A program made the position numbers and the translations under genes. From Fusobacterium perfoetens ATCC 29250 (lineage in GTDB: Bacteria; Fusobacteriota; Fusobacteriia; Fusobacteriales; Fusobacteriaceae), in contig NZ_JHXW01000012.1 in assembly GCF_000622245.1 (NCBI RefSeq), positions 1 through 64,000 of the forward strand: DNA of 64,000 bases, given 5' to 3'. Below the pieces are notes generated by a model that worked only from the letters and a program-made list of their open reading frames with translations, was not told the origin of the DNA and searched no databases. Positions 9,476 through 11,597 of the stretch are shown here, one piece after another. How positions within the stretch are numbered: position 1 is the stretch's first letter; each line of letters opens with the position of its first letter.

Positions 9476-10240
9476 TTATTTTTGATTTGGATAAAGTTGT
9501 AAGAATTTATCTACTTTTTCAGGGAAATATTTTTGTAATATTTTTAGATAAGTTCCTTCATCAACTAATTCCATAATGGCTTTATTAGAAGCTTCAGCTA
9601 ACTCAATATTTCCTTTTTTGAAAGCTATAGAAGCTCCAGGTTTTTCATCTTTTATAGTATCTAATTTTTTTAAATCTTTCATAGTTTTTAAATACTCAGT
9701 AGCAGAAGTATCAGAAAGAATAACAGCATCTATTTTATTGTTTTCAACATCCATTAAAGCTCCAGTCCAAGAGTTGTAAAGAATTACTTTATCAATATCA
9801 GTCATTTTTTTAGCAAATTCTTCTTGAACACTTCCTAATTGAGTTCCAATTTTTAACCCTTTTAACTCATCTTTAGAAGTTAATTTTGAGTCTTTATTAA
9901 CTAAGATAAAATGTTCATCAGAAGCAACTAATAAATAAGGCATTGAAAATGTAACAGCTTTTTGTCTTTCTGGAGTTTGTTTCATACCAGCTATAATAGC
10001 ATCTAATTTATTTGTTTGTAAGGCTGGAATTAATCCATCAAAAGCGATATTATTCCAAACAACTTCATATCCTAATTTTTTACATATAGCTTCCATAAGT
10101 TCAGCATCAAAACCAACGATTTTACCATTTTCAATGTATTCATATGGTTTGTATTCAGCATTAGTTCCAACATATAGTTTTTTAGTTGCAAAAGATAAAG
10201 TTCCAAATAAAAGCATAAAAAGTAAAATAAGTTTTTTCAT
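9476..10240 (-). CDS. Amino-acid ABC transporter substrate-binding protein (family 3), orphan
   Basis: A 254-residue periplasmic binding protein with a classical signal peptide (about residues 1-18, cleaved after LSFA). Family-3 features are GTNAEYKPYEY near the mature N-terminus, GFDAELMEAI, GMKQTPERQ, GTQLGSVQE and the C-terminal LQKYF segment. The family binds polar or basic amino acids; the ligand cannot be fixed from sequence. No permease or ATPase gene is adjacent, so it must work with components encoded elsewhere. TAGGAGG precedes the start. Most notable is its roughly 210-base leader with a small ORF and a terminator/antiterminator pair (separate entries), which points to expression controlled by an amino-acid signal. 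Confidence 0.92.
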   Translation of the reverse strand: MKKLILLFMLLFGTLSFATKKLYVGTNAEYKPYEYIENGKIVGFDAELMEAICKKLGYEVVWNNIAFDGLIPALQTNKLDAIIAGMKQTPERQKAVTFSMPYLLVASDEHFILVNKDSKLTSKDELKGLKIGTQLGSVQEEFAKKMTDIDKVILYNSWTGALMDVENNKIDAVILSDTSATEYLKTMKDLKKLDTIKDEKPGASIAFKKGNIELAEASNKAIMELVDEGTYLKILQKYFPEKVDKFLQLYPNQK

Positions 10241-10264
10241 AAATACCTCCTAAAAAATAAAATA

Positions 10265-10299
10265 AATAAAAAAACTGACGAAATAGATATTTCGTCAGT
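10265..10299 (-). terminator. Leader terminator (attenuator) of the amino-acid-binding-protein gene
   Basis: Reading on the reverse strand, an 11-bp perfect stem, ACTGACGAAAT (10299-10289) and ATTTCGTCAGT (10284-10274), has a 4-base loop and is followed by eight Ts. It lies inside the transcript between the leader ORF and the gene's ribosome site, so it must be read through for expression. An alternative pairing would destroy it: 10351-10344 plus 10340-10335 can pair with 10304-10299 plus 10296-10289. Confidence 0.9.
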
Positions 10300-10337
10300 A
10301 GTATACAAAATTAAATAAATTAAAATAAAAGTACATA

Positions 10338-10424
10338 CTAAAGGACAGAATAATACCTACAATCAAAAAAACTATTTAGATTTATAACAGTATAAAAGTT
10401 CCTTAGTTTTAAAGATTGTAACAT
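10338..10424 (-). CDS. 28-residue putative leader peptide controlling attenuation
   Basis: ATG at 10424 is preceded by a perfect AAAGGAGGT (10440-10432) at 7 bases. The ORF runs 28 codons to TAG (10340-10338). The peptide begins MLQSLKLRN and ends SFFDCRYYSVL. Both arginine codons are AGG, which appears uncommon beside AGA in neighbouring genes. The ORF sits between a consensus promoter and an intrinsic terminator. The last codons and stop supply the left arm of the antiterminator, while the stop region (TAGTATG) can alternatively pair with CATACTA just after the Shine-Dalgarno site. This is the three-way layout of translation-coupled attenuation. I do not recognise this leader peptide; whether the ribosome stalls at Cys/Arg/Tyr codons or is arrested by the nascent chain is open. 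Confidence 0.7.
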   Translation of the reverse strand: MLQSLKLRNFYTVINLNSFFDCRYYSVL

Positions 10425-10457
10425 TAGTATGACCTCCTTTTTATTTTTATAGGAAAA

Positions 10458-10486
10458 AATATATCACAGTTTTTTTTATTTGTCAA
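10458..10486 (-). promoter_or_regulatory. Promoter of the leader and amino-acid-binding-protein gene
   Basis: On the reverse strand TTGACA (10486-10481), 17 bases, TATATT (10463-10458). It lies just after the stop codon of the upstream Mu-like gene and predicts a transcript start near 10450. Confidence 0.8.
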
Positions 10487-10493
10487 ATAATTT

Positions 10494-11597
10494 TTATAAA
10501 TTTATAGTTCCTAAAAATTCATTTTTAAAAAATAAATAAAAAATATTCAGTTTTATAGGATTAAATTTAATTTCGATATCTAGCCCTTCTAATTTTTCAA
10601 GTAGTTTAGATTTGAAAATATTATTTTTAAATCTTATGCTAGAACCTGTAACTTTTCTAGTTGTTGATTGTAGAAAAATATCTAATTCTCTAAATAAAAC
10701 CTTATTTTCTAAAATTTTGTAATCAATAATGTAATTATATTTATTTTCGTCAAGATATATATAAGAATCCAAAAAAGTTTCTAATGAATTGAGAGAAAAT
10801 ATTTTATTTTTATCAGTAAAAATTTTATATAAATCTTCTTTCAAAAGAGAGATAAATTTTTCAAGTTCTTTATCAGTATTTTGATAGTTTGTAATTTTTA
10901 TATTAGTTTTATCAAAAATTTTTTTCGATATATTTTTAGGAATATTAATATCAGAATCTAATAATATTTCTTTAGGTTTAGAAAATTTTTCTGTTAAAGA
11001 AGAAACTTTTAATATACTTTCTCTCATAAATCCCAAGATAGAATAGATATTTGTAGGTTCAGTATTAAGAGAATAATTTATAATATCTAAAGTTGAAGCA
11101 TCAAACATAAGTACTAGAGTTGGAACTACAACTTTATGAGCTTGGACTATTATATATAAAGGAGTTTCAACAATAACAAAAACTTCATTTGACCTTTTTA
11201 TTTTTGAAAGATGATATGAAGTTGTTTTTTTGAAAAAACCATCAATATTATTTAAAATTCTATAAAAAGTAGGATAACTTATATTATAATTTTTTTCTTT
11301 TAAATATTTTTGACAATTATTATAAAGTTTAGATAAGTTAGACTCCCCCTCTTTATAATAGATTTTTTTTATCAAATCTACTCCATTTTCATCTATTGAC
11401 TTATAAGAATTTTTATCTTCCCTTTCTTTTTTTTCTAATCCAAGAACACCTTTTTCTTTGTAAGATTTAATCCATCTTTTAAGGGTAGCATAAGATATTC
11501 CAGTTTCACTTTCTATCTCTTTAAGTTTTTTTTCTTTTTTTAAAAAAGGCTCAATTATCTTGAATCTTTTTATCTTTGTTTCATCATTAAATTCCAT
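10494..11597 (-). CDS. Mu/Tn552-like integrase-fold protein with HTH domain; first catalytic Asp missing
   Basis: This 367-residue protein has a helix-turn-helix in the first 45 residues (ETGISYATLKRWIKSYKEKG) and a second predicted DNA-binding region to about 125. An integrase (rve) core and a small beta-rich C-terminal domain like the Mu transposase barrel follow. In active relatives the core begins with a WQ-D-H-TPL segment; here the matching stretch is FVIVETPL (140-147), so the first catalytic Asp is Val143. The second Asp (D214, ILLDSD) and the Glu (E246, KELEKF) remain. The gene is intact, has a ribosome site (GGAGAG) and lacks flanking inverted repeats, cargo or a partner ATPase. It looks like a domesticated or decaying transposase kept as a DNA-binding protein; function unknown. 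Confidence 0.65.
   Translation of the reverse strand: MEFNDETKIKRFKIIEPFLKKEKKLKEIESETGISYATLKRWIKSYKEKGVLGLEKKEREDKNSYKSIDENGVDLIKKIYYKEGESNLSKLYNNCQKYLKEKNYNISYPTFYRILNNIDGFFKKTTSYHLSKIKRSNEVFVIVETPLYIIVQAHKVVVPTLVLMFDASTLDIINYSLNTEPTNIYSILGFMRESILKVSSLTEKFSKPKEILLDSDINIPKNISKKIFDKTNIKITNYQNTDKELEKFISLLKEDLYKIFTDKNKIFSLNSLETFLDSYIYLDENKYNYIIDYKILENKVLFRELDIFLQSTTRKVTGSSIRFKNNIFKSKLLEKLEGLDIEIKFNPIKLNIFYLFFKNEFLGTINL

Follow-up and report, generated by a model that had tools for sequence, protein, structure and literature searches.

The gene for an amino-acid solute-binding protein of Fusobacterium perfoetens ATCC 29250 is preceded by a short leader open reading frame and an intrinsic terminator which, in our estimate with a probability of about 0.86, form a ribosome-mediated transcription attenuator of the trp type, whose signal would be how much charged arginyl-tRNA is available to decode the rare AGG codon. 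The locus lies in the 64 kb of contig NZ_JHXW01000012.1 which were analysed as a whole (hereafter the window) and is read on the minus strand. The computational observations behind this reading are the architecture of the leader, a selection for AGG codons in frame, a link with arginine genes, a folding of the leaders of the family which depends on the position of the ribosome, and the absence of the repressor ArgR.

AGG codons in a family of leaders

A similarity search with the DNA of the window leader returned no close orthologue in the genus but only fragments, and these fell on the 5' part of leaders upstream of related binding-protein genes. We collected leaders of Fusobacteriaceae from the DNA 5' of some 130 of these genes and from pattern matches; the two broad genome patterns AGGNNNAGG and TNAGGNNNNNNAGG matched mostly ordinary coding starts and also gave leaders of argC and of permease genes. 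About 55 distinct leaders with the same layout were obtained (the set still included one spurious open reading frame). Their common design is a strong ribosome site, an open reading frame of 10-50 codons, a terminator and a gene, the latter being a related binding-protein gene, an amino-acid permease gene, argC or argG, in Fusobacteriaceae and Leptotrichiaceae.

Typical leader peptides begin with MLVTLNLRNRKYSTT, MLKALKLRNRKYTTN, MLLRTLKLRKFNIKL, MFFSKLRIRKNEN, MLRNLRIRKNKQQNN or MLFKNLRSMPQLN, and the start of the window peptide, MLQSLKLRNFYTVINLN, matches this N-terminus. The conserved part is L-x-L-R; otherwise the peptides diverge widely. An earlier note on this DNA, made from the letters alone, had looked to the C-terminus SFFDCRYYSVL for conservation. 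This was not borne out: searched as CRYY in the first 44 loci, that end occurred at the window locus alone, and it is the N-terminus which is conserved instead.

The codon AGG had been called rare-looking, and it is: in the genes of the window it accounts for 3.8% of the arginine codons, AGA accounting for 92%. In the leaders, AGG was found 120 times in frame where 1.8 occurrences were expected (67-fold enrichment), against 6 and 5 times in the two other frames, while other rare codons are far fewer (CTG 10, TGC 8). The restriction of the enrichment to the reading frame speaks for a message read by a tRNA and against an RNA motif; an internal signal resembling a Shine-Dalgarno sequence was ruled out on the same ground, out-of-frame AGG not being enriched. 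A selection bias was removed by choosing leaders with the Shine-Dalgarno sequence, the open reading frame and the terminator as sole criteria, arginine being ignored. AGG was then present within codons 2-12 of all 44 distinct leaders of binding-protein loci, with 81 occurrences for 0.56 expected; AGA occurs 16 times in the same codons, which reverses the ratio of the genome. All 11 argC leaders likewise have AGG within codons 2-12, and each of them holds at least two AGG.

Many leaders have a second AGG close to the 3' end of the open reading frame (SLRQD, SLRNRS, FLRHR, DRYR; loci L005, L006, L050, L054, L079, L052), which is perhaps a second stall site, like the AGG at codon 23 of the window leader. 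As for the tRNA-Arg genes of this genome, the part of the tRNA loci which was scanned has one with anticodon CCT, two with TCT and one with TCG. The tRNA-Arg(CCT) gene lies at L288:1501-1577 (+), on contig C11, and the way in which it is itself regulated could determine how strongly the entire regulon responds.

Arginine genes downstream of the leaders

The identity of argC (N-acetyl-gamma-glutamyl-phosphate reductase) was established with the TIGR01850 equivalog, at 426 bits for a cut-off of 234. In a survey of argC among 96 genomes of the order Fusobacteriales, AGG leaders were found before this gene in members of two families, Fusobacteriaceae and a second one which we take to be Leptotrichiaceae, with the peptides MKMIRRIRDNKFT, MRRYRRIRSKYNIQY, MMFRISRTRRQ.. 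and MMLLRNFRIM... Several of these leaders are followed by tandem intrinsic terminators, the second with a long stem (L263 on the minus strand, between the leader open reading frame and argC; L269; L302-L305).

On contig C5 of the present genome, a paralogous leader (69977-69870), a binding protein (from about 69695) and argG (68935-67736) make up one operon, and argG stands directly behind such leader-binding protein units in several relatives too. Some argG genes of the second family are found directly 3' of short leaders with one AGG, such as MRNNFRIM... In the argG loci that were fetched, a leader lay within the reach of our finder in 8 of 30, most having none. Further targets of AGG leaders are amino-acid permeases, and M20 amidohydrolases in operon with orthologues of the window protein.

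The fact that the same leaders precede argC and the leader-binding protein-argG operons supports arginine as the signal. Of the candidates proposed earlier (cysteine, arginine or tyrosine), only arginine has such support. ArgR, sought with the PF01316 cut-off, was found in none of the 96 genomes, 8 of 14 controls being positive. The survey found no argC in the present genome either, so that uptake should matter there.

The gene of the window is indeed an orphan, as had been stated: it encodes an amino-acid solute-binding protein which belongs to the general family SBP_bac_3 and is nearest to binders of Arg, Lys, Orn, His or Gln, and no permease or ATPase gene adjoins it. In relatives, its orthologue lies in an operon 3' of an M20-type amidohydrolase, and there the AGG leader precedes the amidohydrolase (L017:1490-2659 (-), L021:265-1443 (+)).

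The window locus and the folding of the leaders

The promoter, the leader open reading frame and the terminator previously described at this locus are confirmed (Table 1): the boxes TTGACA-N17-TATATT are present at 10486-10458, and the 28-codon frame agrees with the sequence. The stem of the terminator does have 11 bp (ACTGACGAAAT, 10299-10289, with ATTTCGTCAGT, 10284-10274, around the loop ATCT), but its run of T numbers seven (10274-10268, the first T being paired in the stem), not the eight announced. Among the pairings competing with it, 10340-10335 with 10304-10299 is perfect, as is 10340-10334 with 10431-10425, whereas that of 10351-10344 with 10296-10289 exists with one C.A mismatch. 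The leader RNA folds better than its dinucleotide shuffles (z -5.3; 0 of 200 shuffles as good), and a scan of both strands of the whole window for a Shine-Dalgarno sequence, a short open reading frame, a terminator and a gene gave this locus only. The upstream gene (10494-11597, minus strand) encodes a helix-turn-helix protein with a C-terminal match to Mu transposase, so that the leader may adjoin the remnant of a mobile element.

Table 1. Parts of the leader locus and the gene downstream, in window coordinates
Feature	Position	Strand	Basis
-35 box TTGACA	10481..10486	-	sequence
-10 box TATATT, spacer of 17 nt from the -35 box	10458..10463	-	sequence
Shine-Dalgarno sequence of the leader frame, AAAGGAGGT	10432..10440	-	sequence
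Leader open reading frame, 28 codons, peptide MLQSLKLRNFYTVINLNSFFDCRYYSVL	10338..10424 (ATG 10424-10422, TAG 10340-10338)	-	related leaders precede related genes
AGG Arg codon 8, at the conserved L-x-L-R position	10401..10403	-	leader comparison; AGG of the family in codons 3-10
AGG Arg codon 23, putative antiterminator stall site with a second ribosome at the start	10356..10358	-	folding model
Strand 1, CAUACUAA, between Shine-Dalgarno sequence and start; partner strand 2	10424..10431	-	folding
Strand 2, AUUCUGUCCUUUAGUAUGUA, spanning the stop codon; partner strand 1, or strand 3 and the left arm of the terminator	10332..10351	-	folding, sequence
Strand 3, UGUAUACUA, immediately 5' of the terminator	10299..10307	-	folding, sequence
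Intrinsic terminator: 11-bp stem, 4-nt loop, seven T	10268..10299	-	sequence
Shine-Dalgarno sequence AGGAGGT of the binding-protein gene	10245..10251	-	sequence
Gene of a family-3 amino-acid solute-binding protein, 254 aa, putatively regulated	9476..10240	-	profile searches

We folded the leader RNAs up to the loop of the terminator, with a ribosome placed on each codon in turn (the footprint extending 15 nt both ways from the first base of the codon in the P site). Over the family, the probability that the left arm of the terminator is held upstream is 0.42 with no ribosome, rises to 0.63 when AGG occupies the A site and is 0.50 with the ribosome later in the open reading frame, while dinucleotide shuffles give 0.51, 0.50 and 0.49 in the same states. 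The difference between AGG and no ribosome departs from the shuffles with p=2.5e-8 over 54 leaders and p=1.3e-8 over 36 clusters. The argC leaders, which are an independent set, behave likewise (0.42 with none, 0.64 at AGG, 0.45 at the stop; p=3.7e-4). In an aligned group of paralogues, covariation is strong in the terminator (6 of 7 pairs) and modest in the hairpin of strands 1 and 2.

In a model specific to the window leader, the pairing of strand 1 with strand 2 (0.92) persists as long as the start site is free of ribosomes. Once a lead ribosome is at AGG23 and another at the start, the terminator's left arm is paired to strand 2 at 0.44; this value is 0.00 with a ribosome at the stop or with none.

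Several results weigh against the attenuator reading, or against details of it. In the aligned paralogues, the antiterminator pairing of strands 2 and 3 has no significant covariation, its AAUG/CAUU core being invariant; strand 2 shows no more simple contiguous complementarity to the terminator's left arm than shuffles do; and in the generic stall scan the window leader stays flat at 0.65. In the specific model, strand 2 stays bound when the only stall is at AGG8. When the full-length RNA is folded at equilibrium, the terminator wins in every state, which means that the model depends on co-transcriptional timing. Lastly, the window binding protein falls under every arginine equivalog cut-off of NCBIfam (the best matches, LAO with 158.6 bits for a cut-off of 256, ArtI and ArtJ, are all below threshold), and its ligand is presumptive. 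We regard the class of attenuator to which the window leader belongs as secure, and the exact stall codon at this locus as not secure.

Proposed mechanism and alternative explanations

The ribosome would translate the leader behind the RNA polymerase. With ample arginine, it would pass the AGG codons and reach the stop, the terminator would form and the binding-protein gene would be off. With little arginine, it would wait at AGG and, in most members of the family, mask the 5' strand of the hairpin in the leader; the downstream strand could then capture the terminator's left arm, and the polymerase would read through. In the window leader this 5' strand lies between the Shine-Dalgarno sequence and the start, and the antiterminating state favoured by the models has one ribosome leading at AGG23 and another on the start. 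A leader RNA which is not translated would terminate as well. The translation of the leader, the stalling and the response to arginine are what we infer here. The family would thus be an arginine regulon, comprising argC, the binding protein-argG operons, amino-acid permeases and the operons of M20 hydrolase and binding protein, in an order which lacks ArgR.

The earlier note had hesitated between a trp-type principle and attenuation by the nascent peptide. The same layout before dozens of genes, the in-frame AGG and the position-dependent folding speak for the former. In the latter, a peptide (with R-x-R, for example) would arrest its ribosome upon binding of a ligand, be it arginine, some other metabolite or a drug of the macrolide type; the fungal arginine attenuator peptides, SpeFL and the leaders of drug resistance act in this way. 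R-x-R does exist in some of our leaders (LRNR, IRIR, IRSR), and drug-dependent stalling is on record for conserved Arg-Leu-Arg leader peptides of other bacteria (PMC8632094). However, the selection bears on the codon AGG and not on arginine generally (81 AGG against 16 AGA), the peptides are divergent, with a window C-terminus unique among the loci searched, and the genes downstream are arginine genes, not genes of drug resistance or ribosome rescue. Because it is the codon which is selected while the peptides diverge, we hold arrest by the nascent peptide to be improbable. Nor do we give more than a slight chance to a constitutive brake, in which AGG, being rare and slow under any condition, would do no more than delay translation and so adjust how closely ribosome and polymerase are coupled, with no sensing of arginine: the counts of the other rare codons given above are far lower than that of AGG, and arginine biosynthesis is among the functions downstream.

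The strong folding of the leader and its terminator could also be expected if arginine were sensed directly, by a riboswitch or T-box as structured RNA or by a leader that binds a protein, the open reading frame being incidental. This is very unlikely: a scan of the window with Rfam gave nothing over the gathering score except a tRNA, hence no riboswitch and no T-box, the three-periodic selection of AGG shows that the open reading frame is translated information, and ArgR is absent. An ordinary terminator next to a spurious open reading frame would be the most trivial explanation in an AT-rich genome where short open reading frames are plentiful; with a single such arrangement in the window and in-frame AGG recurring before related genes of many genera, the odds of this at the locus itself are minute, and chance is already excluded at the level of the family.

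Comparison with known systems

The textbook attenuators respond to Trp, His, Leu, Thr and Phe. We found no report of an arginine transcription attenuator, nor of attenuation in Fusobacteria, in the open-access library searched; subscription papers were outside the scope, so that this does not prove absence. Like the leaders described here, the trp, his, leu and thr attenuators (Escherichia coli; Actinobacteria, PMC1262725) have a Shine-Dalgarno sequence, a short leader frame with codons of the sensed amino acid, a terminator, and a biosynthesis or transport gene downstream; they also have upstream hairpins which compete with the terminator, as folding models predict for our family. Unlike them, our leaders would sense arginine, they hold scattered copies of the rare AGG, as a rule two or three close to the 5' end, instead of a run of common codons, their structures are AT-rich and poorly conserved, and they belong to an order without ArgR. 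The attenuators of Actinobacteria concern Trp, Cys and Leu, arginine being listed under T-boxes (PMC1262725). The sequences support regarding an arginine-sensing attenuator with an order-wide regulon as a variant of trp-type attenuation.

In the literature, the nearest arginine case is rbfL of Staphylococcus aureus (PMC13009471), a leader peptide likewise encoded by a short open reading frame with rare AGG and AGA codons; ribosomes which pause on it when arginine is limiting control the gene downstream, as we propose here. However, its effect is on translation: the rbf ribosome site is hidden by the paused ribosome, and less of this biofilm regulator is made. Here, by contrast, leader and gene are separated by a transcription terminator, the expected change in expression is a rise, and the genes under putative control are those of arginine. 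Moreover, S. aureus reads AGG by tRNA-Arg(UCU), while the present genome has a tRNA-Arg(CCT). The ARG T-boxes of Firmicutes (PMC1262725, PMC2494555) also couple tRNA charging to transcription antitermination of arginine genes, but they bind the uncharged tRNA directly, without translation, and no T-box matches here. ArgR/AhrC exerts a similar arginine control over arg biosynthesis and uptake as a DNA-binding protein, which the order lacks. The cysS attenuator uORFC-8-2 (PMC8632094) resembles ours as a bioinformatically found leader frame with regulatory codons and an amino-acid gene downstream, and differs by its cysteine codons, its host order Rhodobacterales and its tRNA synthetase gene; the 26-genome search, which included Fusobacteria, reported other classes of upstream open reading frames (PMC8632094).

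Besides the AGG leaders, we noticed a Leu/Ile-rich leader-like frame without AGG, MRNTSILSILMLNKLISIKIKNIPLVLLSLTNNFF, which together with a terminator lies 5' of an HMGL-like synthase gene (PF00682; L003:1843-1989 (+), contig C24 of this genome, near 430400). As a candidate Leu/Ile attenuator, it suggests that leader attenuation may be general in the group.

Implications

It is conceivable, and we put it forward tentatively, that the Fusobacteriales have exchanged the arginine repressor for a distributed network of leader peptides which read one isoacceptor, tRNA-Arg(CCU), AGG being nearly barred from ordinary coding and kept as a dedicated signal of arginine supply for biosynthesis and uptake. 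The old question of the preference of attenuators for rare codons would become directly testable by single synonymous changes. Fusobacterium and the relatives of Leptotrichia are amino-acid fermenters of the mouth and gut. If the reading is true, it would explain how arginine supply is controlled in an order without ArgR, and many orphan binding proteins and permeases of these bacteria could be assigned roles related to arginine.
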